In this document: piece by piece, positions 25,916 to 61,200 of the stretch
Position numbering within the stretch: position 1 is the stretch's first letter
Layout of the letters: each line of letters begins with the position of its first letter
Source: Lepidurus packardi
Lineage: Eukaryota; Arthropoda; Branchiopoda; Notostraca; Triopsidae
Assembly (NCBI GenBank): GCA_023053545.1
Contig: JAKZAN010000007.1
Location: 10,664,001 to 10,728,000, forward strand
DNA: 64,000 bases
Direction: 5' to 3'
The notes under the pieces: generated by a model
The model's database searches: none
Seen by the model: the letters and a program-made list of their open reading frames with translations, nothing else
Told to the model about the DNA's origin: nothing
Made by a program: the position numbers and the translations under genes

Positions 25916-28702
25916 TCAGAATAAAGTTGAAGGTACTTGAATGCTGGTGAAAATAGTTTGGGTTCCGGAAGTGTCAACGTGACCGTCTGGTAAGACTTCG
26001 CCAATCAATTGTCGCATTTCGAGCCGTCCCAAATCCCCTCTCAAACTCAACATGCTCATGAGGTGCGCTTGCGTAAGATCAGGGAAGGTTTTGGTAAAGC
26101 TATGCAGTTCCAACGTCAGGAACTCGACATCCTCTACCTTGACAATCTCCGAAAGGGCAGTGACAGCAGCCACAGTTTCGTCAGTTCGTTGGTTATTTAG
26201 GCCTTCAAACTGCGACTGGACAAAATCTTCCAAGCGTCTCCCTTCATTTCGCAGTCTTTCCGAGAAGACTCGACGTTCTTCGACTGTCTTCAGGTTGAGC
26301 TTTCTCTGGAAAAAGGCTCCCAAGTACTTTTTCAGAAGCATAGCCTGCGCTTTCGAAAGGACGCAGCGAAGGTTACTGGGACACAAATGAACATAGTCCT
26401 GGAAGTAGTCACTTAATGTAGCAAAGATGGTGTCCATCGCCGTCGAGGAACTCAACCATTTCCGAGTGCAGACGTCTGTAAAATGGGGCTCCAAATCGAG
26501 GAACGCTTCTTCCAGCAGGAAGCCAACAGCGTCGTCCCTTATTTCCTATCCCAACCATATGCAAAACAATCCTAATATAGAAAGGCTTTTGGTAGACAAA
26601 GTTTTACTTGAAAGGTAATTTGCAACTTGTTGTATAGCACACTCGTGTCATCTACACCATCGTAGCGCTGTCTTAGCGAAGATCCCAGCTCTACGTAACG
26701 GTCGCAGTTATTCAAAATGGCGATAATATACTGCGCGAAATAAGGAATCTGGAAAAGAGGAGCCTAATGAGATACCCTAAACAAAAGCTTGTAGCTTTTC
26801 TTTCTACCTGGCTGCGATCCTCAAAATAGCGTAGCTTGTAGTCTTGAACTGCGTTCCTGTATAGAGCTCCATGGACTAGGATTTCTTCGAAGCTTTGAAT
26901 CAAAACTCGGCGGACGAGATCTTTGCCAACAGTAGCTGCGACTTGCAAGTTCTGCTCCACCATTTGGAATACGATAATAGGCGCTTCAGTGTGAAAATAG
27001 CCTTCGGAATCGCGAACGGGTTCTGCGTCTTTTCGCCAATCTTGCGCTTCGGCGGCTAAAGTCTTCTTCAGCCACTCGTTATAGTTGCTACCCATATCCT
27101 GTCCAAATGCATCGAATAGTACTTGGTTAGAATAAGAGAGAAAAAGTCCTCCTTCTCACCTTCAGATGCTTGACAGCAAGCTGTTCGTCCATCTTGGCGT
27201 CTAATAAATGAGCCATTTGGCTCTTTTGGAGGCCTAGGTCAGGGTGACCCATGAGGTCTTTGCCGGGATACACATGACGCGCCCATGCCAGCAACGTGGT
27301 GTACTCGTTGCTCTCTAAACCATCGGCTGACAATTCACATAACTAACCGAATGATATTTTTAGAATGTTTAAAAACGAAACGAAAGGTAAACGTACGTGA
27401 GATTTCAGCACTTTTTCATACATTCCCATGAATAAGACAATGGGATCCCAATGCGGGGGGAAGACTGGAACGCACAGCGTTCGAACCACTCGCAAATCCT
27501 CCAGAACAATCTGCCTCGTGACTTCCAGGTGTCGGACCAACCACAATTTGCTGTCCGACCGCTCTTCGAACTGGTTGCCTTCAATCCGCTCAACAACAGA
27601 CTCTTCCAGGACAGATAAGCATTTGGCTTTCCACTTCTTAGGTCGCCCAGGAGGCGTAAAGCCAGTCACGGCCTGTCGCTAGATCGGAAAGAATAAGAAA
27701 AAAAAGTGCGAATATCCTTTCAAGCCATACGGCCACTCTATTTCCGGGATTTTCTTACTTCCAAAGCAAAGGCATCCGCTTGTTCTTCTCTTTCGATAAT
27801 TCTGAGAGCAGTAACAACGCCATGGGGCTCCTTCCGGACAACGTTTAAAGCTCGTTTCATGATCAGCCAGAGTTGCTTGGCCAGATCAGCGCCTAGCTTC
27901 TCAACATCCACAAAGTACGTCATCAGAGCTATTTGGTTAGCGTTGAGTTCGGCTTCGGAACTGGACTTGACGGGCGTCCGATGCAACTCGAACAACAAGG
28001 CGTCGCGAGCTTGTTCCAAATCCATTAAACTCTGATGGGCGTGAAGCAACTGTCCATCGTTAATCCAAGCCTGGGTTTTCGAGACACTCTCTGGTACCGC
28101 AAACAATTGCTTCATGTTATCCATGGCTGCCGCGTACTGGGAATGCCGGAAATATTCTTGTCTAACGTCCTGAAAAGATTGGACGTAGCTTGCTACAGGA
28201 GACAAAGAAGAGTGCAGGTTTTCTAATCTACCGGGGACAGAAGAGAAAGAAGTAAAGAAAATCATTTGAAATTCATTAGCGTTTTTAAGCAAATCCATTA
28301 GCTGTGTACCGTGGTTTAACATGTTCGACATCGGCCAAGGCCGACTGTAGATTTTGCAAACCAGTGCGAACGCTTTCAATCTGACTTTGCACAACAGTCT
28401 TGAGTAAGGCCTCCATCGAAGCTTTTTTCTGTACCATACGCTTTTTATGGTGATCCAACTATGACAACACGTGAAAGTTTCAATGAGAAAATTTGGTTCC
28501 ATTTGTGGGACTTGTTAAATGAAGACGAAGTGAGTGGTACCTTTTCGAGCTGGTCCTGCCTTTGAAGCATATGTGAAACTTGCTTTGTTGCTAGTGCACT
28601 CATGGCTTTTTCGGCGTTTTCCCACTCCATTTTGGGGGCAACTTTGACAGATTTGCTAGGTATATTTAATTCAATGGTTTTCGTTACACTCAATCTCTTC
28701 AA
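25916..28702 (-). CDS. EXOC3: Exocyst complex subunit Sec6 / EXOC3
   Basis: A core subunit of the exocyst, which tethers secretory vesicles to the plasma membrane. Eight exons (28541-28702, 28310-28458, 27759-28227, 27397-27678, 27160-27342, 26808-27098, 26608-26748, 25916-26545) give 768 residues, near the human 745. Conserved blocks include VSHMLQRQDQLEK, KKASMEALLKTVVQSQIESVR, HAHQSLMDLEQARDALL, LAKQLWLIMKRAL, RIIEREEQADA, QAVTGFTPPGRPKKWKAK, WLVRHLEVTRQIVLEDL, EAPIIVFQMVEQNLQVAA and, in the last exon, FLLEEAFLDLEPHF and HLMSMLSLRGD. The protein is all-helical with no enzyme motif. Phases close exactly over the whole model. Confidence 0.95.
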
Positions 28703-29172
28703 TATTTATATTATGATGGGAGTTTCTGTAAACTATCGGCTGTTTCCCTAGAAACCGGAAGGAGCTTATTCTAAAGCAGCGTCGTACTCCGGACGTAAAC
28801 TCAAAGAAATGTATCTAAGGAGCGCCATCTAGTAGTGCATGTTTAACGAATTTAAACTTTAATTTAACGAATTTAAAATTTAAACATAAATTCTCTGCGA
28901 TCCGAAACAATTTGGGTGAAAATACCCAAGTGCCTCAACAGAAAAATAAAGAATTGAGAACTAGATAAGAAAAGCTCTACGAAAATAAGCCAAATTTCCA
29001 AAAGACAATCAAGTAAAAGTTTATTCTAGTTCCAACAAAATTCCTGCTTATCTTTATTTTCATGGGAACATTGCAATATGGCTAAATCCCGACTATGTCA
29101 TACACGCAGATACGAACGAACCTATCTAGAGATCTCTTCTAAACTTTTCTTTTAACGCATTTATATTTGAAT
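28703..29172. other. Intergenic region between EXOC3 and the takeout-like gene
   Basis: A/T-rich sequence between two divergent genes, with a short direct repeat (TTTAACGAATTTAAA) near 28845-28880. No coding sequence is evident. Confidence 0.45.
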
Positions 29173-30070
29173 ATGGTTTCAACTCAAGACGTCATATTCT
29201 GTCTGGTGCGAATGTTGTACGTAATTCTTTTTTCCGCAGGTTGCGTCCAAAATAAACAGAGTTTTCCCCTTCGCTCGAGCAACCCAATCGATGAAAGCGA
29301 AGCAAACTGGATAAAGCAGGTGAGAAAAAAATGGTCTTTAAAATACACCATTCAGACGTTCTTTTTTTTACAGATGTTCAGTCTTGGAAGGAAAAACTTC
29401 TCCCAACCTTCAGACGCTCGTCTTCTTGATCCGTTCAGAGTTGGGTCACTCTTTACTTCCTTTGAAGAAGGCAACTTACGTTTCAATTTCACTGCCAAGT
29501 AAATTTGTCAAATTGAGGCATACGTACTCTACTTTCAGCGTATTCCCATTAGAGATGTAATTGTGGAACGGTTATCCGACTACCAAGTACTGGGTGTACA
29601 TCAAAGAATGGACGAGAGGGCCATGACGGTACGATTTCATTTTCCTTACCTCAAAGTACGTGGAAATTTCAAGCTTAACGGAAAAAGTCGTCCTTACGAT
29701 GCTACAGCTGGTGGCGGAGAAATGAAGCTGGCCCTACATTACATGGTTACGGAAGCTAACTGCCGAATCAATGATGTCGACGATGTTAACGGTATGCACT
29801 GTCTTCGAAGATTTGAGCACACACTTCCATTTGGTTTCAATTCCTTTGGCTTTGCGGGGATTAGGAACCAGAACGATTGCGATCGAAGGACCGTGTTTTA
29901 ATACCACATACGCGGCTATCGCGGCCCAGTTTTCGAACCTTATCGGAAATTCTGATTTTATTGCAAATACGAAGCCCTTCTCAGTGTTCCTGGGCCGCCG
30001 AGTCTTTCAATCCTTGCAACCAGTGATAGAGCAGGAATTCTCCGAACATCTACGCACGTTTCTTAACTGA
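29173..30070 (+). CDS. Takeout / juvenile-hormone-binding-like secreted protein
   Basis: A member of the arthropod JHBP/takeout family, secreted carriers of small hydrophobic ligands. Exons 29173-29319, 29374-29498, 29553-29791 and 29865-30070 give 238 residues, the normal family length. An N-terminal signal peptide (VIFCLVRMLYVILFSAG) is followed by family blocks: RLLDPFRVGSLFTSFEEGNL, DVIVERLSDYQVLGV, VRFHFPYLKVRGNFKLNGK, and in the last exon FSNLIGNSDFIANTKPFSVF and LQPVIEQEFSEHL. Intron 2 uses the acceptor CCATTAG at 29551-29552 (54 bp); choosing the nearer CAG breaks the frame. Intron 3 is 73 bp. The gene appears intact. Its ligand cannot be predicted. A nearly identical 3' fragment lies 5.6 kb away. 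Confidence 0.82.
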
Positions 30071-30728
30071 AGCTACAGAATCTAATAGCCAGGTGCGAGA
30101 TTTGTCCAGGTTGAAAGAACCCCAGCACAGGGACCCTGTAAACCAAGAGGGGAAGCAATAAATGAACAGCGTTTATTCACAAATGGTACCTAAAAAGAAT
30201 GTATGATTATCATTGTATATTTGCAAACAATATTTCAGTAAAAACTTCTAGCAAAAAGCATAAACAAGTATGGCTGCGGTTTACTCCTAAAATTACCAGT
30301 TCCCTCCACTGGGAGTAGCGAATCCGAGATCTCACGGCGAATCTGCAGTTTCGGAGTACGCTTTGCCAGAGTAGAGTGACACTCTCAGAGTGGCCAGTGA
30401 AAATCGCTATTAGATCAAGCGTTGGGGAGGGACTAACTGGCGAGCTAGCAAGCTGATTGGGCGAGTTATCTTCTCCGTATACATTTGTATTTTTATTCTT
30501 GAAAAGTACTGTAAAACGTTCGAAAAATGCAAATATGTGGGCACCTTTGGCTTTTTATGATTTGAAAATCTTGTTTAGGGAGGCCAGATACTCAGAAATA
30601 ACAAAAAGAAGTTGAAATAGCCGGATAAGTGCTTCATTTACTAGGAAAAACAGACTTTCCTAAGTCTTCAAGATCCAGGTTAAAATCAAAATTATTACCA
30701 AAGTACATGAACATACATAATATAGACA
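30071..30728. other. 3' flank of the takeout-like gene and of the WRN helicase
   Basis: The first 150 bp are shared with the duplicate at 35.2-35.8 kb (the duplicated 3' flank). The rest has no open frame of note. Confidence 0.45.
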
Positions 30729-30793
30729 CTACAAGTTTGGCTTTTTCTTCTTGGTTGGAACTGAATTACCAGCTTTGGCTGCTTGTGGCTGAA

Positions 30794-30813
30794 CCTAACC
30801 TAACCTAACCTAA
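30794..30813. repeat. Four exact telomeric units (CCTAA)4 inside the last WRN exon
   Basis: CCTAA repeated exactly four times (TTAGG on the coding strand), 20 bp. Removing it leaves ...GCC AAA CTT CAG CCA..., which stays open to a TAG at 30729-30731. With it, translation stops at a TAG formed by the repeat itself (30800-30802). Confidence 0.95.
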
Positions 30814-33800
30814 GTTTGGCAATCGGTACAAGCTCCGCAACTCCAATGCCATAAGTGGCACCGTTACTTGGGTTAACTGTGGGCAGTCTGATTTTCAAAG
30901 TATCCTTCGACTTCATCTGCTGCGCTAAATTGGCCAATTCCATAATCCTCTCCTTGGTCAAAAACACTTCCCCCTCTCTCATTTCTGCAAGTGGTGCAGC
31001 CGCAGGCGCAGTAAGAGTCTTTGACGACACAGGAGAAAAAAACGCATCAATCTTGGGCTGGGAAGCCATACTTTGCTGTGCAGTTTGAAACTGGAATGAA
31101 TTCTGGCGCGGCAACTGGGAATCAGGCTCGAAATGGCCCACTACATTCTCGCTGACTGCCTTTGTCTCCTCATTTACTCCAAATCTCTTCTTGAGCAACG
31201 CCAAGACCACATGGATCTGGTCATTACTGATGTCGGGCGGACAGTGTTCTTTAATAGGCTTCAAAAGCGAGATATCTATGAAAAATGATTCAAATTAACG
31301 TCTCTTAAGGTTAAATTGGTGTTAGACTATCGGCTCTTCTTACTAGAATTGATTGGTGGAGAGCGAATTACGTTCGTGATGAGCTCTTCAACTTGTGGCG
31401 TGACGCCCAGACGGTTCAAATCCAACGGTAAGCCAACCTTGATGGCCTCACACAAATGATTAACGACTGTGCCTTGCGTGCAATTCCTGAGATGGCCAAA
31501 AGGCCCAAAAAGGATAAGAATAAAGAAAAAATCCCAAAAATAAGGCGAAAATCACCTCGTAATAGCAATATCTGCCACAATTGTCTTCATTTGAGTGAAC
31601 ATTATGTAAGTTTCCTTCGCCGAAGGCTTTAGCAAGGATAATAAAGATGCATTACAGTCTAATTGGGGCGAACTTGACGTTTCTGCTGCTTTAGCTTCTC
31701 TGGCAGCAGAAAGCTCATCAGTGTCCAGTGCAATGTTGAGTTTCTTGCCCAGAACCGCAATCTGTTTCACAAATTCTTGCCCAAATTGCTTCAAGTAAAT
31801 CGCATTCTGGGCTTCCGATTCAATGGCAGGAGTGGCTGGGGGCGGAGTCAAATTGGTGGTAACAGGTACTAAAGGCAACAAACTATACAAAGGAATTCAA
31901 AAATTCGTTACCATATAAGTAAAACCTTAAAACTCATGAAAAAATCCAATTTTTACGTGATTTGAGGCTTGGAAACAGTTTTACTGGTTCCAATGTGACT
32001 AGTTTGTACGGACTCGGTCCTCAAAACGTGTTTTTCGACCGTCTGACTAGCTTTGGTCAGGCTAATGAACTGCTCGGTGGGTATTAAGGGGGCACAAGTT
32101 TTCCTAAACGGTGAATAGAAGTGCTTTTAACGTTACTTGGGCTTTTTTTCGCTACTTTAAACAAAAAACAGCATCTTAGCTTACTTAGCTAGCGCCATAG
32201 AGCCTTTCTGACTTATCCGAATCACCTCGTAGCTGACACGGCTCCCTTTGCAGGTATGTTCCTCCAAATATTCTTCGGCTAAGAGCATCTTAACTGAAAT
32301 CAGTATATAACGAGTCTGTGATTAGTGAAAGAGAGGGCAATTGAGTTAAATTAAGGTGTCCACGGTACCAAGTTCCTTCCAAAAAGGTTCGCTATGCTCT
32401 TTTCCTTTGCCAAAGAAGGGACTTGAGCAATGTCGCGAGTCAATGCGCTTGCTACTCGATCCTCTGAGAAATAGAATAGGCACCGCTATCCCCGTTTTGC
32501 CTCTAAAGACTTCTATAGCGCTCAAGAGCAAAACTGCTTCTTTGGAGTAATCTTGAGCTTCCACGCTAGGAATCTGGGGCGCTAAACCACTACTATCAAT
32601 GAAAAAAAAAAAAAATGATTAACTAATTGAATATCATAACGAGTGCTTCCAAGTTACCTATGGCGACAGTTATCACAGCATTTTTCGAGAGGAAGACCTC
32701 CAAGCGGTTTCCCATCAAAATGCTTCAATAGGAGCACTCGCCTACATTGGGAGCTGTCCAAGTATTGCTGCAAGACAGGGAGCATCTTCCTCCGATGCAG
32801 GCGAAAAGATTCGTTCTTCAATTTGCTCATAAAGAAGTGGTGAACCCTAAAATCGCACGGGGCGAAGAACACGTGGCATTCTGCAGGTAATCCGTCTCTT
32901 CCAGCACGTCCAATTTCTACATTATTAGAGCAAAGTGAGCGTCTTAGGGGCTAATTAACCTGTAATTACCCTGGTAGTAGCTTTCTATCTCCTTAGGAGA
33001 GCCATAATGGATCACACGACGAATATCTGCAATAAAAAAGGGTTGCAATTACCTGCAATTGAAGTAGGAACAAATTTTGAAGATTTTAGACCATTTAAAA
33101 CCAACCTGGCTTATCAATACCCATGCCAAACGCGATTGTGGCCACGATCACCGTCACTTCATCACGGACGAACATTTGGTGGGTTTCTTTACGTTGATTT
33201 GGTGACCGTTTGGAATGATATGGCATGCAATCCACCCCTTGATCTTCATTCCGAAAAGCCACAATTAAAAAATATAAGATTTGAACAACAAAATGAAAGA
33301 TTACGCTTCAAAACGCGTGTGACTTCTTCGGTATCCTTAATTGTGGGACAATAGATAATAACTGAGCCTTCCACGTGCGCGTCTTTTTGTACTAAAGGGC
33401 CAATATCTTTCCAGATGTCTCCGCTTTTACTGTGCACTGCCAAATAGAGATTAGGACGATCAAAACTCGTTACGGTCTTCAGAGCTTTCCTAAGGAAATG
33501 AAAATAAATAAATATCACTATTTAAAATAAAATAAAAAAATACCAATTTGTAATTCGAAAAACAAAAATCAGTTAATTACTTGAGTCTGAGCTGCGCCGT
33601 AATATCAGCTTGGACTTGGGAAGTTGCGGATGCAGTTAAGGCCAAAATGGGAATATTAGGGAACGTTTTTTTCAATTTTCCCAACGTTCTAAAACGAAAA
33701 AAAAAACAAAAAAAAATTAAGAAAATTTAAAAAAATTATTATGTGCGTCCTTTTTTACCCGTAATCTGTTCTAAAGTCATGGCCCCATTGGCTCACGCAA

Positions 33801-35081
33801 TGAGCTTCGTCGATCGCAAACAATGTGATGGACACTCTCTGATGAAGACACTTCAACACCTCCATGTTGTTTGCTACAAACTCTGGAGTGACGTAAAGCA
33901 CTCGGTATTCGCCTTTCATTAAACCACTCATGACTTCAGTTTTCTTAGTTTGCGTCGATCCTAGGTACGTACCTACGAAGAAAAAGATACATTCATCAAT
34001 CAAGAAACTCTTTTAAAATATTCTTAAATCGGGAAAAGACTCCAAATAACGTCGCATAACTTGTCAGAAATAATTATCGAATTTTAAGATTATTTCAAGA
34101 CGTTTTTTTTTTTTACCCGGAATATTGGCTGCCTGTAAACCCAAAACTTGATCTTCCATGAGCGCAATAAGGGGCGACACAACCACACTCAAGCCGCCGC
34201 TATAAACAGCTGGGTACTGATAACACAAGCTCTTTCCATAACCAGTCGCCATAATGACACACTGATCTCGACGAGCCTTAGGAGAAAGAGGATATTTTTT
34301 AGCTTAAAAAAGTAATTTGAAGGGAAATTAACTTCTAAAACGCTGGAAATGATACGCCATTGCATAGGTCGGAATTCCTTATGACCAAAATACTTGTGTA
34401 AAGCTGCCAAATGAGCACGAGTGGGTTCTGTATACTCATAATCAGAGTCCCCAAAATTCTCTTCTGTGAAAACAAATCAAAGAACACAATACGAGAATAC
34501 ATTTTAAGAATAATTTGATATAATCTTTAACTGAATAAATTTAAATAGTGTTTTTACCCATTTTGGGGGGAAGCACAGGCTCTTGAACTTTCTCAACATC
34601 TGTGTACGCCTAAATAATAAATATAACCATAATCAGTTCATTCAAATTGAAGGTCCATTGGAACTCAAATAAATGTCAAATAAATAAGGCAATAACGCTC
34701 AATAATAATAAAATTATAAAAAATAAAACTAATAAATAAATAAGGTAACAGTACCACAAATACAGTAGTTCAATTTACTGGTTAATTTAGGTTAAATTGT
34801 GTTGGAAAGAGACTTCACTTCTAATAACTGCTGATCCGCCTCGGTGTCAGTTAACTGCTCTTCCTTTACTTGTTCTTGGCTAGCAGCGATGCAAATCATG
34901 GCTGAACTGCTTTCGTAGTCAGACTTCGTTCCTGGCTCGAATGGAAGATGAACCGTTTACGAAAGAGGATAAGACTGGATACCATATAAACTGGCGCTTG
35001 CGACTTGAAAGATGCTATTTCAAATGGTTTCCATCCGTATGTATTTAAGGCTTCCCGAATGAAAATACTGTGAAGGTTCAC
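30800..35081 (-). CDS. WRN: WRN-type RecQ DNA helicase, no exonuclease domain
   Basis: A 3'-5' DNA helicase of genome and telomere maintenance. Seventeen exons give 981 residues; the main ones are 34117-34276, 33759-33972, 33305-33489, 32658-32916, 32369-32592, 31556-31882 and 30800-31275. Helicase motifs are [24 protein letters not shown] (I), [17 protein letters not shown] (II), LALTASAT (III), SVIIYCPT (IV), [13 protein letters not shown] (V) and [10 protein letters not shown] (VI). Zinc-binding and RQC regions follow ([36 protein letters not shown]), then the WRN-type C-terminal helix-turn-helix ([31 protein letters not shown]), which separates it from BLM and RECQL. Only about 120 residues precede the helicase core, so the exonuclease domain of vertebrate WRN is absent. 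The first two exons (34983-35081, 34819-34935) are the least certain. The C-terminus is cut by a telomeric-repeat insertion. Confidence 0.93.
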
Positions 35082-35107
35082 GACATCGTGTTCATTTTAA
35101 AATTGAA

Positions 35108-35216
35108 ATGGGTAGGGGACGAACGGGCCCAGTTCCAAACGGGCCGACCTTGGCCAAACGGGCCCAGTGCCAAAAGGGCTCATCCATTGACCAAACGGGC
35201 CCACTATTTTTGAAAC
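35108..35216. repeat. Short GGGCCCA-containing direct repeats
   Basis: The motif AAACGGGCC(C) and close variants occurs five times in about 100 bp (ACGGGCCCAG, AAACGGGCCGA, AAACGGGCCCAG, AAAAGGGCTCA, AAACGGGCCCAC) at uneven 18-28 bp spacing, next to the WRN start and the truncated takeout-like copy. Confidence 0.7.
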
Positions 35217-35229
35217 ATTGCAAACACCC

Positions 35230-35820
35230 TGTTTTCATTTTCCTTACCTCAAAGTACGTGGGAATTTCAAGCTTAACGGAAAAAGTCGTCCTTACGATGC
35301 TACAGCTGGTGGCGGAGAAATGAAGCTGGCCCTACATTACATGGTTACGGAAGCTAACTGCCGAATCAATGATGTCGACGATGTTAACGGTATGCACTGT
35401 CTTCGAAGATTTGAGCACACACTTGCATTTGGTTTCAATTCCTTTGGCTTTGCGGGGATTAGGAACCAGAACGATTGCGATCGAAGGACCTTGTTTTAAC
35501 ACCACATACGCGGCTATCGCGGCCCAGTTTTCGAACCTTATCGGAAATTCTGATTTTATTGCAAATACGAAGCCCTTCTCAGTGTTCCTGGGCCGCCGAG
35601 TCTTTGAATCCTTGCAACCAGTGATAGAGCAGGAATTCTCCGAACATCTACGCACGTTTCTTAACTGAAGCTACAGAATCTAATAGCCAGGTGCGAGATT
35701 TGCCCAGGTTGAAAGAACCCCAGCACAAGGGACCCTGTAAACCAAGAGGGAAGCAATAAATGAACAGCGTTTATTCACAAATGGTACCTAAAAAGAATGT
35801 ATGATCATCATTGTATATTT
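35230..35820 (+). pseudogene. 5'-truncated duplicate of the takeout-like gene
   Basis: About 590 bp match 29636-30222 at roughly 98% by eye, including the 73-bp intron, so this is a DNA-level duplication and not a processed copy. Homology begins inside exon 3 (FHFPYLKVRGNF) and runs past the stop into 3' flank, ending near CATTGTATATTTGCAAA. There is no signal peptide, exon 1 or exon 2, and no start codon in a suitable place. The remaining frame is intact: of the differences in the coding part most are silent, and one is Gln to Glu in the last exon. It sits between the 5' end of WRN and the 3' end of CNOT7. Confidence 0.85.
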
Positions 35821-35915
35821 GCAAAACAAGCTTGGGTTCTTTCTTTTCGCTTTTCTTTACTTTCCAGTGAATTAAAACATGTCGTCTGCCACGTGTTACA
35901 CATAAAACGTCGTGA

Positions 35916-37221
35916 TCAGGAGGAGTTGTTGTCGCCATTCTCGTGAAAACTGTTGCCATTCACCACAAAGGATGTGCCCAAGCCGTACAAGTGACCGCAA
36001 TACTTGGCGTCGTCAATGTTGTCCTCGAAAAACATCTCAAGAAATAAAGAGCAATCCATGAATAGAATACCTTCTTTAAAAACTAGTGTCATGCTGACCG
36101 CTTACCTCTCTCATTTTAAAAAAAGCCATGCCTGTTAGCAAGGAATCCGAACCAGCTTGGTGCTGTGGTCCCACTCTTTCGAGCTCTAGTTGCTCAGCCA
36201 CTTCTTGCAATCCTCCTTTTAGGTTCTTGCAGCTCTTCATAAGATACTAGGAACAAGTTCTGATTAATACAGGTGTTTCTTACTAGGTCAATGAACTTAC
36301 TTTAACGTCGTAAATGGTTGGGAAATAGATCTTGAGTAATTCAAAGAAATCCCCCTCTTCTTGTGGGAGATTCTGATCTGTTAACAGCTTTAGCAGATAC
36401 CCAAAATCGTAGCCACTATCAAGTATCAGAACAAAATAAGACTTGACCGTGTCATGTAAAGGAGTCACGAGTAGCAGAAATGATACCCCAAGGAGCCACA
36501 AAAGACTCGTTTGACGGAAGAAAATAAGCTTACCTGTGGAATGATAGCCACTTGACGTTCTCCATTAACACTATGCCAGATGTCATAAGCAGCTCGGCGA
36601 AATCCAAAGGGTCAATTCCTTCCTCTTCGTGTTTCTTAAACTGAAGACCGGAATTCTGCAGGAGATCTATGCTGTCTTGAGCATACATATCTTCACTAGA
36701 AAAAGATTCTCAAGTAACAAGTTGTATTTTTGGAAACAAAGGCTTACGTCAGATTAAACTTAAAGTTGAACTGCCATGTGGAATAACCAGGTGGCGATTT
36801 ACCGTTTTTATCCAGAAAGCTTAATCCTAGCTGTATAATCTTCAGGAGGTCCACGTTACATCGCAGAAGTTGATATTGGTAATCGGCCGAGCTGCGGAAT
36901 TCACCAATAGGCCTCGCAACAACGCCCGGAAATTCTGTGTCCTAGAAAAAGACATTAGTTAGGAAAGACAACGAGTGAATTCGAGTTTTAGGCAGAGAAG
37001 AGTTGTAGCGTTTACCATAGCTACGTAATTGTAATTCATGATAACCCTTCGTATTATTCGGAACTCCTCGTCCAAATTGTAAGCCCATACATCGCGAATG
37101 CCACAATCCTCGTTTGAATGACCTAAAGGATCAGCCCAGCATTAGTATTCCGCCAAAAACATACGAGGAAACTTCAAATAACATGGGTTGGACCCGGAAT
37201 ACCTTGATTTGTAGCAGGCAT
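35916..37221 (-). CDS. CNOT7: CNOT7/8 (CAF1/Pop2) deadenylase of the CCR4-NOT complex
   Basis: A DEDD-type 3'-5' exonuclease that shortens mRNA poly(A) tails. Seven exons (37203-37221, 37016-37122, 36748-36941, 36534-36695, 36301-36415, 36106-36246, 35916-36035) give exactly 285 residues, the human length. Catalytic acidic residues appear in MDTEFPGVV (Asp, Glu), [15 protein letters not shown] (Asp) and [19 protein letters not shown] (Asp). Other family blocks are [58 protein letters not shown] and [14 protein letters not shown]. The short C-terminal tail ([14 protein letters not shown]) is variable in the family. No defect is seen. Confidence 0.96.
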
Positions 37222-37840
37222 TATGGCTCACAGCAACCAAATTCCCAATTTTTTGGCTTCAGTTTCACGTGGCGCGAAAATGGAAGCTGTTTTTTCCCAA
37301 TTTTTAAGGTCTAATAGACCCTTATGATTGAAGAGCCGCTATCTGCCCTCGGAGAATCAAAAGTGATTCAATGAACAGGACAATATTTATTGTTTAAGAC
37401 CTGTCATTCTATAACTCAACCGATTATTAAAGCAAAACAAAAGTTAATCACGCCCCGTACTGACATACGCAGAAACCAGAAAAAAAGAAGGAAGAAGAAC
37501 AAGCTTCGGAAATCGATGGATTTTTTTTTAATACTACGCTGTCGCCACCCGTGGCTTCTTTCTACAATAAAGGCGAACTGAAATAAACGCCATGCGTCAG
37601 GTTCTTTTACTGAGTTGTTTATACTTTATAACTGCCAAAACAGTCAGTGATTTTTTTTTTAGTTGAAAACTTGTTAGTGATCCCTTAATTAGTTTAAACT
37701 ATGTAATTCTCGACGAAAAAGAAACCAAAATAAGCCAAAGAAACGCCGCTCACCAAAAAAGTCCTGGTTCGTAAGGCATTCCTTTCGATTTTTTATTACC
37801 ATTATTATTTTTCAGGGACGATACCGTACTCGTAAATGCT
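37222..37840. other. Intergenic region between divergent CNOT7 and PPIP5K
   Basis: It contains the upstream regions of both genes. An acceptor (TTTCAG) at 37810-37815 just before the PPIP5K start suggests an untranslated first exon for that gene within this interval. Nothing else is recognisable. Confidence 0.45.
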
Positions 37841-40800
37841 ATGTCTGATGAGCAGTTGCAGGCCAATTTTACGGATTCGAGAGCGCAGTTTTACATAGGA
37901 GAGGATTGTGATCTCAAGTGCAGATTGTGGCACCCAAGGCCGGTATGTTCGTATACGATCAGCGATATTTAAGAATTTATTTTAGAGTCAATCTGTCTTT
38001 ATGTCTATCTCCTTAAGTCTAGCTGTTTTGTCTTTGATCGAAGCTATGGCAAAAACAAACATGGTTGGCTATTGCTACGCCAGGATAGTATAAACATGAA
38101 CACGATAATCAAATATTCGGTTAGACCTGGATCAGGTTGAGTTTTAGCAAAAGGTTACTTCAACTCGCCCTTTTCGGTTGAAACTACCTGGCGTAGCAAT
38201 AGCTGAACGTCTTCTTTCGTTACACGTCGTAGATCGCCGCAATAGCACCAGTCTTTGTTTGTTTTTTGCAGAATTCGCCGTGTACTTTATGTCGCAATAT
38301 GGAGCAGGAAGGGAAATGCAAACAAGTCGTAGTTGGGGTCTGTGCGATGAACAAAAAGTCACGTTCGAGGCCCATGAAGGAAATCCTCTCGCGCTTGGAG
38401 GAATTTGAGTATATCACGACGGTGGTTTTCCAGGAAGACGTCATTTTGAACGTATGCACGCGTTAGTTAATACAAGTAAAACAACAGCGTTTTAAAGCGT
38501 TCTATTTTTAGTGTCCCATCGAAGAGTGGCCGGTCTGCGATTGCCTCATCTCTTTCCACTCGAAGGGCTTTCCCCTCGACAAGGCCGTCGCCTATGCCAA
38601 CTTGCGCCAGCCGTTCGTCATCAACAATTTGCCAATGCAGTTTGTAATACAAGTAAGCGCGGCGCCGGGGTTAAGAAAACTAACGTACTAGCTCTGTTGA
38701 TAGGACCGCCGGGAAGTGTACGCTATACTGCAAGCAGAAGGGATTGAAATTCCCAGGTTTGCGGTACTTAACCGCGATTCTACCAACCCACGTGGTATGT
38801 CTCTCTTTAGCCCATCTTTGATTCCAAGTGTCCTTTTCTAAAGAAATGGTCCATTTTAGATCACGAGTTTGTTGAATGCGAGGATCATGTCGAAATTCAT
38901 GGGGTGCTGTTCAACAAACCCTTTGTGGAGAAACCAGTCTCGGCCGAAGATCACAACATCTATATTTACTATCCCACATCCGCCGGTGGTGGATCGCAAC
39001 GTTTGTTCCGTAAAGTGAGATGCGCTCTTGAAAATCCTTCAGAAAAATAGCTAGCCAAAAATAATTTGTAACATCTGAAGTATACTTTGTAGGTAGGGAG
39101 CAGGAGTAGCGTTTACTCGCCAGAATCGCGCGTTCGCAAGTCTGGATCGTACGTCTATGAAGATTTTATGCCCACGGATGGGACGGACGTCAAAGTGTAC
39201 ACTGTCGGACCAGATTATGCCCATGCCGAAGCCCGAAAATCCCCTGCCTTAGACGGAAAAGTCGAGCGGGATTCCCAAGGCAAAGAAATACGGTATCCTG
39301 TGATATTATCCAATACGGAGAAACTGATTGCCCGCAAAGTGTGTTTGGCTTTCCAGCAAACTGTTTGCGGTTTCGATTTGCTAAGGTGAAGATGCTTGCT
39401 TTTTCTTGGATGTTACAGGTTGTATGCAAGGAATTCGGTGGAAATAATAATGTACACTACTCTCTTTCAAAGGGCCAATGGAAAATCCTACGTATGTGAC
39501 GTCAACGGCTTCAGCTTTGTCAAGAACTCGAACAAGTATTACGACGACTGCGCCCGGATTTTAGGAAATATGATTCTGAGGGAATTGGCTCCCACGCTGC
39601 ATATTCCTTGGTTCATGCCTTTCCAATTAGATGATCCGCCTATCGTACCTACAACTTTTGGGAAAATGTAACGAACTTGGATAGAGATATATCTTTAGTT
39701 TTCCTTCTGGTCTCAATCGCTCATTTCTGATGTCTCGTTTCGGATTCTCATTTTTTTTTTTTAATTACTCTTAACGGTGTTCCAGGATGGAGCTGCGTTG
39801 CGTAGTTGGGGTAATTCGTCATGGCGATCGAACTCCCAAGCAGAAAATGAAGATGGAAGTGCGGCATCCGCGCTTCTTCGCCCTGTACGAGCAACACAAT
39901 ACTCCAGGTGCAGCTGATAATCACGTCAAGTTCAAACAGCCCAAACATCTGCAAGAAGTGTTGGACATTGCCAGAGCTTTACTTTCCGAGATTGAAGCTA
40001 AAACAGCTGATCCAGCGACTGAGGAAAAGAAGGTCAAGCTGGAGCAGCTGAAGAGTGTCTTGGAAATGCAAGTTTGGTTTTTAGTTTAGGGTTCAGGACA
40101 AGTTTGCAGCTAACTAGTCGACTCTTTCTTGGTTGAAACAGGCATGGCCACTTTTCTGGTATCAATCGCAAAGTTCAGCTAAAGTATCAGCCCAAAGGGA
40201 GACCACGAAATTCCTCCAGTGAAGACGGTAAGGAATTTGCGCCTTATTTATTTTGATATATATTTCAGTTTACATTTTTGTTCCGTGTTTCTTTTTTTTA
40301 ATAGAAATTCCTAAAGAACCGTCCGTCCTACTAATTCTGAAATGGGGAGGGGAGTTGACCCCTGCAGGACGCGTTCAAGCCGAAGAACTGGGTCGAATCT
40401 TCCGCTGCATGTACCCAGGAGGTCAAGGTACGTTCCAATGTATGTATAATATATAACTTGTATTAAACGAATTAAGAACTTGTTAACTTATTATTATTAA
40501 CTTATTTAAGAATGTACAGCTTGTATTATTAGAATTACGATACTAGTGTCTTAAGATACTATGAAGATACTAGCAATTCTCAGGATAAAAGAACCAATAT
40601 AATTAGGAGACTATGCTGGCAACCAAGGACTAGGATTGCTTCGACTCCATTCCACGTACCGACACGACTTGAAAATCTACGCTTCGGATGAAGGACGTGT
40701 ACAGATGACGGCGGCAGCCTTTGCCAAAGGCCTTTTAGCCTTAGAAGGGGAACTGACGCCCATTTTGGTTCAAATGGTCAAGAGTGCCAACACGAATGGA

Positions 40801-52210: not shown

Positions 52211-55200
52211 GATGTTTATTTTGCTTCTAGCAGATTTGTTTGAAGTCACAGGGAGAAAAGTCAGAGAGAATAACTGTCTTAAATTGTTCAAAGAACATGA
52301 CTGTCACGGTATTTTTTCAAGTTCTCAACCTAACCGCGTAGCCTAACCTCGTAGCCTAACCTAACGTAGCCGAACCTAACCGCACCGAAGATGTTTATTT
52401 TTTGCTTCTAGCAGATTTGTTTGAAGTCACAAGGAGAAAACTCAGAGAGAATAACTTTCTTAAATTGTTCGAGGAACATGACTGTCACGGTATATTTTCA
52501 AGTTCTAAACCTAACCGCGTAGCCAAACCTAACCGCACCGAAGCTGTGTATTTTTTGCTTCTAGCAGATTTGTTTGAAGTCACAGGGAGAAAAGTCAGAG
52601 AGAATAACTGTCTTAAATTGTTCAAAGAACATGACTGTCACGGTATTTTTTCAATTTCTCAACCTAACCGCGTAGCCTAACCTAACCGCACCGAAAATGT
52701 GTATTTTTTGCTTCTAGCAGATTTGTTTGAAGTCACAGGGAGAAAAGTCAGAGAGAATAACTGTCTTAAATTGTTCAAAGAACATGACTGTCACGGTATT
52801 TTTTCAATTTCTCAACCTAACCGCGTAGCCTAACCTAACCGCACCGAAGCTGTGTATTTTTTGCTTCTAGCAGATTTGTTTGAAGTCACAGGGAGAAAAG
52901 TCAGAGAGAATAACTGTCTTAAATTGTTCAAAGAACATGACTGTTACGGTATTTTTTCAATTTCTCAACCTAACCGCGTAGCCTAACCTAACCGCACCGA
53001 AAATGTGTATTTTTTGCTTCTAGCAGATTTGTTTGAAGTCACAGGGAGAAAAGTCAGAGAGAATAACTGTCTTAAATTGTTCAAAGAACATGACTGTCAC
53101 GGTATTTTTTCAATTTCTCAACCTAACCGCGTAGCCTAACCTCGTAGCCTAACCTAACGTAGCCGAACCTAACCGCACCGAAGCTGTGTATTTTTTGCTT
53201 CTAGCAGATTTGTTTGAAGTCACAGGGAGAAAAGTCAGAGAGAATAACTGTCTTAAATTGTTCAAAGAACATGACTGTCACGGTATTTTTTCAATTTCTC
53301 AACCTAACCGCGTAGCCTAACCTAACCGCACCGAAAATGTGTATTTTTTGCTTCTAGCAGATTTGTTTGAAGTCACAGGGAGAAAAGTCAGAGAGAATAA
53401 CTGTCTTAAATTGTTCAAAGAACATGACTGTCACGGTATTTTTTCAATTTCTCAACCTAACCGCGTAGCCTAACCTAACCGCACCGAAAATGTGTATTTT
53501 TTGCTTCTAGCAGATTTGTTTGAAGTCACAGGGAGAAAAGTCAGAGAGAATAACTGTCATAAATTGTTCAAAGAACATGACTGTCACGGTATTTTTTCTA
53601 TTTCTCAACCTAACCGCGTAGCCTAACCTAACCGCACCGAAAATGTGTATTTTTTGCTTCTAGCAGATTTGTTTGAAGTCACAGGGAGAAAAGTCAGAGA
53701 GAATAACTGTCTTAAATTGTTCAAAGAACATGACTGTCACGGTATTTTTTCAATTTCTCAACCTAACCGCGTAGCCTAACCTCGTAGCCTAACCTAACGT
53801 AGCCGAACCTAACCGCACCGAAGCTGTGTATTTTTTGCTTCTAGCAGATTTGTTTGAAGTCACAGGGAGAAAAGTCAGAGAGAATAACTGTCTTAAATTG
53901 TTCAAAGAACATGACTGTCACGGTATTTTTTCAATTTCTCAACCTAACCGCGTAGCCTAACCTCGTAGCCTAACCTAACGTAGCCAAAGCTAACCGCACC
54001 GAAGATGTGTATTTTTTGCTTCTAGCAGATTTGTTTGAAGTCACAGGGCGAAAAGTCAGAGAGAATAACTGTCTTAAATTGTTCAAAGAACATGACTGTC
54101 ACGGTATTTTTTCAAGTTCTCAACCTAACCGCGTAGCCTAACCTCGTAGCCTAACCTAACGTAGCCGAAGCTAACCGCACCGAAGATGTGTATTTTTTGC
54201 TTCTAGCAGATTTGTTTGAAGTCACAGGGCGAAAAGTCAGAGAGAATAACTGTCTTAAATTGTTCAAAGAACATGACTGTCACGGTATTTTTTCAAGTTC
54301 TCAACCTAACCGCGTAGCCTAACCGCGTAGCCTAACCTAACGTAGCCGAAGCTAACCGCACCGAAGATGTGTATTTTTTGCTTCTAGCAGATTTGTTTGA
54401 AGTCACAGGGCGAAAAGTGAGAGAGAATAACTGTCTTAAATTGTTCAAAGAACATGACTGTCACGGTATTTTTTCAAGTTCTCAACCTAACCGCGTAGCC
54501 TAACCTCGTAGCCTAACCTAACGTAGCCGAAGCTAACCGCACCGAAGATGTGTATTTTTTGCTTCTAGCAGATTTGTTTGAAGTCACAGGGCGAAAAGTC
54601 AGAGAGAATAACTGTCTTAAATTGTTCAAAGAACATGACTGTCACGGTATTTTTTCAATTTCTCAACCTAACCGCGTAGCCTAACCTCGTAGCCTAACCT
54701 AACGTAGCCAAAGCTAACCGCACCGAAGATGTGTATTTTTTGCTTCTAGCAGATTTGTTTGAAGTCACAGGGCGAAAAGTCAGAGAGAATAACTGTCTTA
54801 AATTGTTCAAAGAACATGACTGTCACGGTATTTTTTCAAGTTCTCAACCTAACCGCGTAGCCTAACCTCGTAGCCTAACCTAACGTAGCCGAAGCTAACC
54901 GCACCGAAGATGTGTATTTTTTGCTTCTAGCAGATTTGTTTGAAGTCACAGGGCGAAAAGTCAGAGAGAATAACTGTCTTAAATTGTTCAAAGAACATGA
55001 CTGTCACGGTATTTTTTCAATTTCTCAACCTAACCGCGTAGCCTAACCTCGTAGCCTAACCTAACGTAGCCAAAGCTAACCGCACCGAAGATGTGTATTT
55101 TTTGCTTCTAGCAGATTTGTTTGAAGTCACAGGGCGAAAAGTCAGAGAGAATAACTGTCTTAAATTGTTCAAAGAACATGACTGTCACGGTATTTTTTCA

Positions 55201-58200
55201 AGTTCTCAACCTAACCGCGTAGCCTAACCTCGTAGCCTAACCTAACGTAGCCGAAGCTAACCGCACCGAAGATGTGTATTTTTTGCTTCTAGCAGATTTG
55301 TTTGAAGTCACAGGGCGAAAAGTCAGAGAGAATAACTGTCTTAAATTGTTCAAAGAACATGACTGTCACGGTATTTTTTCAAGTTCTCAACCTAACCGCG
55401 TAGCCTAACCTCGTAGCCTAACCTAACGTAGCCGAAGCTAACCGCACCGAAGATGTGTATTTTTTGCTTCTAGCAGATTTGTTTGAAGTCACAGGGCGAA
55501 AAGTCAGAGAGAATAACTGTCTTAAATTGTTCAAAGAACATGACTGTCACGGTATTTTTTCAATTTCTCAACCTAACCGCGTAGCCTAACCTCGTAGCCT
55601 AACCTAACGTAGCCAAAGCTAACCGCACCGAAGATGTGTATTTTTTGCTTCTAGCAGATTTGTTTGAAGTCACAGGGCGAAAAGTCAGAGAGAATAACTG
55701 TCTTAAATTGTTCAAAGAACATGACTGTCACGGTATTTTTTCAAGTTCTCAACCTAACCGCGTAGCCTAACCTCGTAGCCTAACCTAACGTAGCCGAAGC
55801 TAACCGCACCGAAGATGTGTATTTTTTGCTTCTAGCAGATTTGTTTGAAGTCACAGGGCGAAAAGTCAGAGAGAATAACTGTCTTAAATTGTTCAAAGAA
55901 CATGACTGTCACGGTATTTTTTCAATTTCTCAACCTAACCGCGTAGCCTAACCTCGTAGCCTAACCTAACGTAGCCAAAGCTAACCGCACCGAAGATGTG
56001 TATTTTTTGCTTCTAGCAGATTTGTTTGAAGTCACAGGGCGAAAAGTCAGAGAGAATAACTGTCTTAAATTGTTCAAAGAACATGACTGTCACGGTATTT
56101 TTTCAAGTTCTCAACCTAACCGCGTAGCCTAACCGCGTAGCCTAACCTAACGTAGCCGAAGCTAACCGCACCGAAGATGTGTATTTTTTGCTTCTAGCAG
56201 ATTTGTTTGAAGTCACAGGGCGAAAAGTCAGAGAGAATAACTGTCTTAAATTGTTCAAAGAACATGACTGTCACGGTATTTTTTCAAGTTCTCAACCTAA
56301 CCGCGTAGCCTAACCTCGTAGCCTAACCTAACGTAGCCGAAGCTAACCGCACCGAAGATGTGTATTTTTTGCTTCTAGCAGATTTGTTTGAAGTCACAGG
56401 GCGAAAAGTCAGAGAGAATAACTGTCTTAAATTGTTCAAAGAACATGACTGTCACGGTATTTTTTCAATTTCTCAACCTAACCGCGTAGCCTAACCTCGT
56501 AGCCTAACCTAACGTAGCCAAAGCTAACCGCACCGAAGATGTGTATTTTTTGCTTCTAGCAGATTTGTTTGAAGTCACAGGGCGAAAAGTCAGAGAGAAT
56601 AACTGTCTTAAATTGTTCAAAGAACATGACTGTCACGGTATTTTTTCAAGTTCTCAACCTAACCGCGTAGCCTAACCTCGTAGCCTAACCTAACGTAGCC
56701 GAAGCTAACCGCACCGAAGATGTGTATTTTTTGCTTCTAGCAGATTTGTTTGAAGTCACAGGGCGAAAAGTCAGAGAGAATAACTGTCTTAAATTGTTCA
56801 AAGAACATGACTGTCACGGTATTTTTTCAAGTTCTCAACCTAACCGCGTAGCCTAACCTCGTAGCCTAACCTAACGTAGCCGAAGCTAACCGCACCGAAG
56901 ATGTGTATTTTTTGCTTCTAGCAGATTTGTTTGAAGTCACAGGGCGAAAAGTCAGAGAGAATAACTGTCTTAAATTGTTCAAAGAACATGACTGTCACGG
57001 TATTTTTTCAAGTTCTCAACCTAACCGCGTAGCCTAACCGCGTAGCCTAACCTAACGTAGCCGAAGCTAACCGCACCGAAGATGTGTATTTTTTGCTTCT
57101 AGCAGATTTGTTTGAAGTCACAGGGCGAAAAGTGAGAGAGAATAACTGTCTTAAATTGTTCAAAGAACATGACTGTCACGGTATTTTTTCAAGTTCTCAA
57201 CCTAACCGCGTAGCCTAACCTCGTAGCCTAACCTAACGTAGCCGAAGCTAACCGCACCGAAGATGTGTATTTTTTGCTTCTAGCAGATTTGTTTGAAGTC
57301 ACAGGGCGAAAAGTCAGAGAGAATAACTGTCTTAAATTGTTCAAAGAACATGACTGTCACGGTATTTTTTCAATTTCTCAACCTAACCGCGTAGCCTAAC
57401 CTCGTAGCCTAACCTAACGTAGCCAAAGCTAACCGCACCGAAGATGTGTATTTTTTGCTTCTAGCAGATTTGTTTGAAGTCACAGGGCGAAAAGTCAGAG
57501 AGAATAACTGTCTTAAATTGTTCAAAGAACATGACTGTCACGGTATTTTTTCAAGTTCTCAACCTAACCGCGTAGCCTAACCTCGTAGCCTAACCTAACG
57601 TAGCCGAAGCTAACCGCACCGAAGATGTGTATTTTTTGCTTCTAGCAGATTTGTTTGAAGTCACAGGGCGAAAAGTCAGAGAGAATAACTGTCTTAAATT
57701 GTTCAAAGAACATGACTGTCACGGTATTTTTTCAATTTCTCAACCTAACCGCGTAGCCTAACCTCGTAGCCTAACCTAACGTAGCCAAAGCTAACCGCAC
57801 CGAAGATGTGTATTTTTTGCTTCTAGCAGATTTGTTTGAAGTCACAGGGCGAAAAGTCAGAGAGAATAACTGTCTTAAATTGTTCAAAGAACATGACTGT
57901 CACGGTATTTTTTCAAGTTCTCAACCTAACCGCGTAGCCTAACCTCGTAGCCTAACCTAACGTAGCCGAAGCTAACCGCACCGAAGATGTGTATTTTTTG
58001 CTTCTAGCAGATTTGTTTGAAGTCACAGGGCGAAAAGTCAGAGAGAATAACTGTCTTAAATTGTTCAAAGAACATGACTGTCACGGTATTTTTTCAAGTT
58101 CTCAACCTAACCGCGTAGCCTAACCTCGTAGCCTAACCTAACGTAGCCGAAGCTAACCGCACCGAAGATGTGTATTTTTTGCTTCTAGCAGATTTGTTTG

Positions 58201-61200
58201 AAGTCACAGGGCGAAAAGTCAGAGAGAATAACTGTCTTAAATTGTTCAAAGAACATGACTGTCACGGTATTTTTTCAATTTCTCAACCTAACCGCGTAGC
58301 CTAACCTCGTAGCCTAACCTAACGTAGCCAAAGCTAACCGCACCGAAGATGTGTATTTTTTGCTTCTAGCAGATTTGTTTGAAGTCACAGGGCGAAAAGT
58401 CAGAGAGAATAACTGTCTTAAATTGTTCAAAGAACATGACTGTCACGGTATTTTTTCAAGTTCTCAACCTAACCGCGTAGCCTAACCGCGTAGCCTAACC
58501 TAACGTAGCCGAAGCTAACCGCACCGAAGATGTGTATTTTTTGCTTCTAGCAGATTTGTTTGAAGTCACAGGGCGAAAAGTCAGAGAGAATAACTGTCTT
58601 AAATTGTTCAAAGAACATGACTGTCACGGTATTTTTTCAAGTTCTCAACCTAACCGCGTAGCCTAACCTCGTAGCCTAACCTAACGTAGCCGAAGCTAAC
58701 CGCACCGAAGATGTGTATTTTTTGCTTCTAGCAGATTTGTTTGAAGTCACAGGGCGAAAAGTCAGAGAGAATAACTGTCTTAAATTGTTCAAAGAACATG
58801 ACTGTCACGGTATTTTTTCAATTTCTCAACCTAACCGCGTAGCCTAACCTCGTAGCCTAACCTAACGTAGCCAAAGCTAACCGCACCGAAGATGTGTATT
58901 TTTTGCTTCTAGCAGATTTGTTTGAAGTCACAGGGCGAAAAGTCAGAGAGAATAACTGTCTTAAATTGTTCAAAGAACATGACTGTCACGGTATTTTTTC
59001 AAGTTCTCAACCTAACCGCGTAGCCTAACCTCGTAGCCTAACCTAACGTAGCCGAAGCTAACCGCACCGAAGATGTGTATTTTTTGCTTCTAGCAGATTT
59101 GTTTGAAGTCACAGGGCGAAAAGTCAGAGAGAATAACTGTCTTAAATTGTTCAAAGAACATGACTGTCACGGTATTTTTTCAAGTTCTCAACCTAACCGC
59201 GTAGCCTAACCTCGTAGCCTAACCTAACGTAGCCGAAGCTAACCGCACCGAAGATGTGTATTTTTTGCTTCTAGCAGATTTGTTTGAAGTCACAGGGCGA
59301 AAAGTCAGAGAGAATAACTGTCTTAAATTGTTCAAAGAACATGACTGTCACGGTATTTTTTCAATTTCTCAACCTAACCGCGTAGCCTAACCTCGTAGCC
59401 TAACCTAACGTAGCCAAAGCTAACCGCACCGAAGATGTGTATTTTTTGCTTCTAGCAGATTTGTTTGAAGTCACAGGGCGAAAAGTCAGAGTGAATAACT
59501 GTCTTAAATTGTTCAAAGAACATGACTGTCACGGTATTTTTTCAAGTTCTCAACCTAACCGCGTAGCCTAACCTCGTAGCCTAACCTAACGTAGCCGAAG
59601 CTAACCGCACCGAAGATGTGTATTTTTTGCTTCTAGCAGATTTGTTTGAAGTCACAGGGCGAAAAGTCAGAGAGAATAACTGTCTTAAATTGTTCAAAGA
59701 ACATGACTGTCACGGTATTTTTTCAAGTTCTCAACCTAACCGCGTAGCCTAACCTCGTAGCCTAACCTAACGTAGCCGAAGCTAACCGCACCGAAGATGT
59801 GTATTTTTTGCTTCTAGCAGATTTGTTTGAAGTCACAGGGCGAAAAGTCAGAGAGAATAACTGTCTTAAATTGTTCAAAGAACATGACTGTCACGGTATT
59901 TTTTCAAGTTCTCAACCTAACCGCGTAGCCTAACCTCGTAGCCTAACCTAACGTAGCCGAAGCTAACCGCACCGAAGATGTGTATTTTTTGCTTCTAGCA
60001 GATTTGTTTGAAGTCACAGGGCGAAAAGTCAGAGAGAATAACTGTCTTAAATTGTTCAAAGAACATGACTGTCACGGTATTTTTTCAATTTCTCAACCTA
60101 ACCGCGTAGCCTAACCTCGTAGCCTAACCTAACGTAGCCAAAGCTAACCGCACCGAAGATGTGTATTTTTTGCTTCTAGCAGATTTGTTTGAAGTCACAG
60201 GGCGAAAAGTCAGAGAGAATAACTGTCTTAAATTGTTCAAAGAACATGACTGTCACGGTATTTTTTCAAGTTCTCAACCTAACCGCGTAGCCTAACCGCG
60301 TAGCCTAACCTAACGTAGCCGAAGCTAACCGCACCGAAGATGTGTATTTTTTGCTTCTAGCAGATTTGTTTGAAGTCACAGGGCGAAAAGTCAGAGAGAA
60401 TAACTGTCTTAAATTGTTCAAAGAACATGACTGTCACGGTATTTTTTCAAGTTCTCAACCTAACCGCGTAGCCTAACCTCGTAGCCTAACCTAACGTAGC
60501 CGAAGCTAACCGCACCGAAGATGTGTATTTTTTGCTTCTAGCAGATTTGTTTGAAGTCACAGGGCGAAAAGTCAGAGAGAATAACTGTCTTAAATTGTTC
60601 AAAGAACATGACTGTCACGGTATTTTTTCAAGTTCTCAACCTAACCGCGTAGCCTAACCTCGTAGCCTAACCTAACGTAGCCGAAGCTAACCGCACCGAA
60701 GATGTGTATTTTTTGCTTCTAGCAGATTTGTTTGAAGTCACAGGGCGAAAAGTCAGAGAGAATAACTGTCTTAAATTGTTCAAAGAACATGACTGTCACG
60801 GTATTTTTTCAAGTTCTCAACCTAACCGCGTAGCCTAACCTCGTAGCCTAACCTAACGTAGCCGAAGCTAACCGCACCGAAGATGTGTATTTTTTGCTTC
60901 TAGCAGATTTGTTTGAAGTCACAGGGCGAAAAGTCAGAGAGAATAACTGTCTTAAATTGTTCAAAGAACATGACTGTCACGGTATTTTTTCAATTTCTCA
61001 ACCTAACCGCGTAGCCTAACCTCGTAGCCTAACCTAACGTAGCCAAAGCTAACCGCACCGAAGATGTGTATTTTTTGCTTCTAGCAGATTTGTTTGAAGT
61101 CACAGGGCGAAAAGTCAGAGTGAATAACTGTCTTAAATTGTTCAAAGAACATGACTGTCACGGTATTTTTTCAAGTTCTCAACCTAACCGCGTAGCCTAA

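Follow-up and report, generated by a model that had tools for sequence, protein, structure and literature searches.

A short telomeric tract in place of predicted Ku-binding codons in one of two WRN-type helicase copies of Lepidurus packardi: a probable scar of double-strand-break repair

The window, the 64,000-nucleotide stretch of Lepidurus packardi DNA analysed here (C6:10664001-10728000 of a 108.6-Mb genome in 344 contigs), contains a helicase gene on its minus strand. Comparison with a sister copy on the same contig gives a 17-exon model (30800-34899; exons 14 and 15 are joined into one, and the first exon and start codon are placed tentatively), with GT and AG at every boundary of the 15 remaining introns. 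Intron 14 is gone with a 230-bp deletion relative to the sister, the joint of which lies at 31794/31795; this deletion removes the HRDC domain together with the intron, joins two codons exactly across the lost intron and keeps the frame. In a domain search, the 936-residue model contains DEAD, Helicase_C, zinc-binding, RQC and HTH_40 domains, and no HRDC. Comparisons of the helicase part gave 1.9e-162 for human WRN, 8e-97 for bacterial RecQ and about 1e-80 for BLM, and human WRN is the best solved relative. The assignment to a WRN-type helicase made in an earlier note on this DNA is confirmed by these comparisons, the core, RQC and C-terminal HTH_40 of the predicted RecQ helicase being nearest to WRN.

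An N-terminal exonuclease domain is present in neither the window nor the sister model, the starts of which are uncertain. A minus-strand neighbour at about 36.0-37.1 kb was considered as the missing WRN exonuclease and rejected, as it is a CAF1-family ribonuclease. Two DNA_pol_A_exo1 matches at C6:9930907-9931366 might represent a separate WRN-type exonuclease gene. Direct repeats of 594 bp, sharing 98.5% identity, flank the window WRN copy on both sides (29635-30227 and 35233-35825); the repeated stretch looks like the 3' portion of an adjacent gene, and the piece of it that was tried has no Pfam match.

Exon 17, the last exon, is open on the minus strand and spans 30800-31275 according to frame and model, ending at a TAG (30802-30800) that lies within a telomeric tract. 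Direct reading and a repeat scan place this tract at 30792-30813, where the plus strand reads AACCTAACCTAACCTAACCTAA. It comprises (CCTAA)4 at 30794-30813, four perfect units with no mismatch, and its phase reaches 30792, which gives 22 bp or 4.4 units at a 100% match; on the coding strand these are four full TTAGG units plus AA/TT. The tract is the sole run of at least two exact units on either strand of window positions 1-52000, and the sole run of at least three in the whole window. A 15-mer search allowing up to two mismatches returned 133 matches, against 0.17 expected on shuffles, three of them from the tract and the other 130 in a satellite at 52-64 kb. This satellite array (52329-64000) consists of 153-bp and then 181-bp units with CCTAACCTAAC-like pieces and continues as far as the last base of the window, beyond which about 16 kb of the contig remain.

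The four-unit repeat inside the terminal exon and the truncation of the predicted protein by a stop within it are thus as the earlier note had described them. In general, a perfect TTAGG tract of at least 17 bp is computed to stop every frame and phase. The arithmetic by which the frame would continue without the 20 bp of the tract also holds: on hand reading, 20 further codons lead to PTKKKKPNL and a TAG at 30731-30729. In alignment, this former coding tail (minus strand, 30729-30791; QPQAAKAGNSVPTKKKKPNL, TAG), which now lies beyond the stop, is still near-identical to the sister.

The sister copy was the sole other match in a DNA search (C6:10473790-10474175, 85% over the query including the gap) and lies on the opposite strand, 220 kb from the window copy on the same contig. 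The two copies align with 94.9% identity over 3165 columns and 92.2% over 1232. The sister model comprises 17 exons and 1026 amino acids with DEAD, Helicase_C, zinc-binding, RQC, HRDC and HTH_40 domains, and all of its 16 introns have GT and AG boundaries. A tandem duplication of roughly 600 bp (C6:10468844-10470073, 91.8% identical) affects the 5' exons of the sister. A wider search revealed a third, partial copy immediately downstream of the sister (L003:6360-7660); it covers the WRN C-terminal part and is truncated and diverged (66% identical). Since the gene is one of two near-identical copies, accompanied by this truncated third, the genome still encodes a predicted WRN with the C-terminal end in question, NVISPADKRKLPDWIKTGVNSQPQAAKAGNSVPNKKKKPNL, via the sister copy. 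Uninterrupted RecQ, COX1 or Ku matches on the small contigs C43, C52, C67, C187 and C216 look like bacterial or other contamination, and a nuclear copy of mitochondrial COX1 reads with the invertebrate code.

At the site of the tract, the sister contains no telomeric unit. Its coding strand reads GCTAACGTTA, 56 nt and CAGCCACAAG, and that of the window copy reads GCCAAACTTA, GGTTAGGTTAGGTTAGGTT (19 nt) and CAGCCACAAG; the split point between the shared flank and the replaced part may move by one or two bases. A clean insertion of exactly 20 bp had been proposed and is not supported, as the sister has 56 other bases there; on this alignment, the event appears better explained as a replacement of about -56/+19 nt. 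The sister still ends in NKKKKPNL, in line with the proposal that the lysine tail was present before the event.

A TTA before the tract is common to both copies and in register with it (three nucleotides), although nearby bases differ; because several flank bases beside the tract differ from the sister, both the precise junction and the number of bases in register carry some uncertainty. The 9-mer at the junction (minus strand, 30812-30820 in the alignment with the sister; AAGTTTGGC on the plus strand) contains three bases that differ from the sister and make it identical to 30733-30741, 79 bp off, and it occurs in the window at those two places only. This identity, noticed post hoc, hints at local templating during the same repair. 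A genome-wide search for tract plus flank, allowing up to one mismatch over 18 bp, yielded no donor, the sequence in the window itself being the only match. The satellite at 52-64 kb was likewise rejected as a donor; its units carry CCTAACCTAAC pieces, with no run of three units.

The tract is built from the telomere repeat of this species: the end of contig C3 is exactly (TTAGG)13, the one contig end of this kind seen, C86 holds long internal TTAGG arrays, and a telomerase RNA-binding domain is encoded on C2. Exact (CCTAA)4 has 155 matches genome-wide, including overlaps, versus 0 for a backwards control. Internal tracts are not rare in this genome, because at least 43 separate (CCTAA)4 sites, including the C3 end, were counted by eye among the matches listed. 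All 12 sites examined, which are all on C1, have another run of at least two units within 1.5 kb; the window tract has no companion run of that kind. A terminal telomere near the window is ruled out by the absence of any two-unit run from the last 16 kb of its contig.

In the sister, the 56 replaced bases encode KRKLPDWIKTG, which is similar to the Ku-binding motif of human WRN, KRRLPVWFAKG (residues 1404-1414; human residues 1404-1432 were confirmed in a deposited chain). The 11-residue match scores 35. When the last 56 residues of the sister were shuffled, 27 of 10000 shuffles reached this value, 13 of 10000 contained R..P.W and 0 of 10000 contained [KR]3LPxW. The Ku-binding motif has the published core R-X-X-P-X-W, which is short and turned up in more than 600 proteins in a published search (PMC4831024). 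Read in six frames, R-x-x-P-x-W is absent from window positions 28001-38000 and occurs four times in a 19.8-kb sister stretch, once in the gene frame and in the expected place near the C-terminus, where it constitutes a predicted Ku-binding motif. Human WRN was not among the results of a plain phmmer search that used the last 56 sister residues as query. As human WRN has the same kind of motif at its C-terminus, the presence of the motif is likely ancestral. The third copy ends without motif or lysine tail and gave no answer on the direction of change at the motif.

With the stop in the tract, the product of the window copy also lacks the KKKKPNL tail, but the loss of KRKLPDWIKTG is more telling than that of the lysine tail, a putative nuclear signal. 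An XLF-like motif in KKKKPNL was considered and ruled out, as the tail contains no phenylalanine. Deletion of the C-terminal tandem region of human WRN lowers Ku co-precipitation by more than 95% (PMC4831024). Loss of the motif may nevertheless have a small effect, because the role of WRN in end joining is stated to be marginal, if any (PMC13377182). On the Ku side, a Ku80 vWA exon was found on C5 (alignment threshold 0.001). By hand count over the five pocket positions named in PMC4831024 and PMC13377182, L68, D106, D109 and I112 are kept and Q119 is changed. C5 was listed by the Ku family search and not by the Ku_N family search; Ku-search matches on C216, C187, C43 and C344 were left out because they might be contaminants.

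The tract is probably a short interstitial telomeric sequence that arose by double-strand-break repair and replaced predicted Ku80-binding codons, its repeats supplied by telomerase or by fragment capture. The break-repair pathway fits because of the sudden appearance of the tract, the deletion at the site and the three nucleotides in register; that the tract is perfect and solitary adds support. The earlier note had suggested healing of a break by telomerase or a telomere fragment that added four clean units; break repair stands as the best fit, and the clean addition is not supported, as 56 bp are replaced. In the course of events that we infer, from break and telomerase through the direction of change to Ku binding and the effect on the protein, a break would have occurred in the last exon of one WRN paralogue, with about 56 bp lost. 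TTAGG repeats would then have been placed on the 3' end of the coding strand that the break had exposed; their simplest source would be telomerase primed by TTA, the other a captured telomeric fragment. The repeat-bearing end would finally have been joined to the far side of the break. The predicted product would be a 936-aa helicase with core, RQC and HTH_40, lacking HRDC, the Ku-binding motif and the lysine tail. Because the stop sits in the last exon, nonsense-mediated decay should spare the mRNA.

Whether the window copy is merely a decaying duplicate, in which the tract has no functional consequence, is evenly balanced on the available comparisons. HRDC and the C-terminal end are both gone in the window copy and neither is in the sister, and the ratio of dN (0.033) to dS (0.048) between the two copies over 931 codons is 0.69, which is not significantly below 1 (Fisher p 0.14). 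Against decay, the modelled exons of the window copy show no other frameshift or stop, although the 11 indel events in 1281 aligned intron bases, which differ at 49 sites between the copies, lead to an expectation of about 16 exon frameshifts. The exon indels relative to the sister number three, namely 9 bp, the 230-bp frame-keeping HRDC deletion and the telomeric replacement. Changes polarised by the third copy, moreover, are about equal: of 46 differences in exons 15-17 plus introns, 31 could be polarised, 16 to the window copy and 15 to the sister, and 15 could not. The window copy is therefore not visibly faster than the sister, although the losses are all on the window side. Since about 16 frameshifts are expected and no other is seen, both copies were probably under coding constraint for a large part of the period after duplication, and gene conversion may have played a part in this pattern.

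The same break repair might have used a captured telomeric fragment or an RNA copy as the source of the repeat, instead of telomerase acting at the end, a possibility of some substance that we regard as somewhat doubtful. The three flank bases beside the tract that create the 9-mer found 79 bp away hint at templated end joining, and alternatives of this type are discussed in PMC7215372. The in-register TTA favours priming, however, and the donor search returned no copy of tract plus flank elsewhere. An unlikely alternative history consists of two events, an in-frame 57-bp (19-codon) deletion followed by a clean 20-bp insertion of four units. The reading frame is indeed kept exactly without the 20 bp, because the net loss relative to the sister is then 19 whole codons, and the window copy contains two other frame-keeping deletions, of 9 bp and of HRDC; yet two hits at one point would be needed, deletion and repeat are common in one event, and the frame is kept by chance one time in three anyway. 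Microsatellite growth by slippage, for which the sole argument is the short and perfect form of the repeat, is highly improbable, since the sister's 56 replaced nucleotides hold no CCTAA or TTAGG unit and the process does not remove 56 bp.

The preferred reading, repair of a double-strand break with telomeric repeats, has counterparts in mammals, where break-site inserts likewise contain at least four units, are absent from the related locus and come with deletion and in-register nucleotides (PMC2246262, PMC7215372). Here, in contrast to the mammalian inserts, the unit is the pentamer TTAGG, the empty comparison site is a paralogue, not an orthologue, and the insert lies in a coding exon. Among the changes at mammalian telomeric inserts, deletion is the commonest (65 of 130 rodent loci); in the horse, deletion alone is reported at 20 of 66 loci and deletions plus additions at 14 (PMC2246262, PMC7215372). 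In-register nucleotides are found at 31 of 40 informative horse loci, with three or more in register at 14 of the 40 versus at most 1.56% expected, and none of 229 human inserts lies in an exon, which is explained by the stop codons that inserts bring (PMC2246262, PMC7215372).

As in the WRN Ku-binding motif described in PMC4831024 and PMC13377182, the conservation of which is stated there for vertebrates, the sister has R-x-x-P-x-W within KRKLPDWIKTG near its C-terminus, followed by a basic patch. This final patch, however, lacks phenylalanine and so contains no XLF-like motif by the paper's description, and Ku binding by the sister is predicted only. Zokor Aplf is likewise a truncated break-repair protein discussed together with interstitial telomeric repeats (PMC12412657); its truncation results from a splicing mutation, whereas in the window WRN copy the stop codon is part of the telomeric repeat. 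A small literature sample, mostly titles and abstract openings, contained no description of a protein truncated by a telomeric repeat.

The kind of event is thus known, but two things about it are unusual, namely that it struck a coding exon and that it removed a likely Ku-binding motif. A further reading, improbable on present comparisons, is that a telomeric repair scar severed the link of one WRN paralogue to Ku after duplication and that this paralogue has been retained as a working helicase, independent of Ku and devoid of HRDC; if so, a scar made by telomerase would have given rise to a novel version of a protein of telomeres and break repair, with the intact sister alongside. At this locus the tract sits in a coding exon and the sister reveals which bases disappeared; they encode the segment by which WRN is expected to be tethered to Ku. 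The two copies would provide a natural full-length/truncated pair for testing the WRN tail outside vertebrates.
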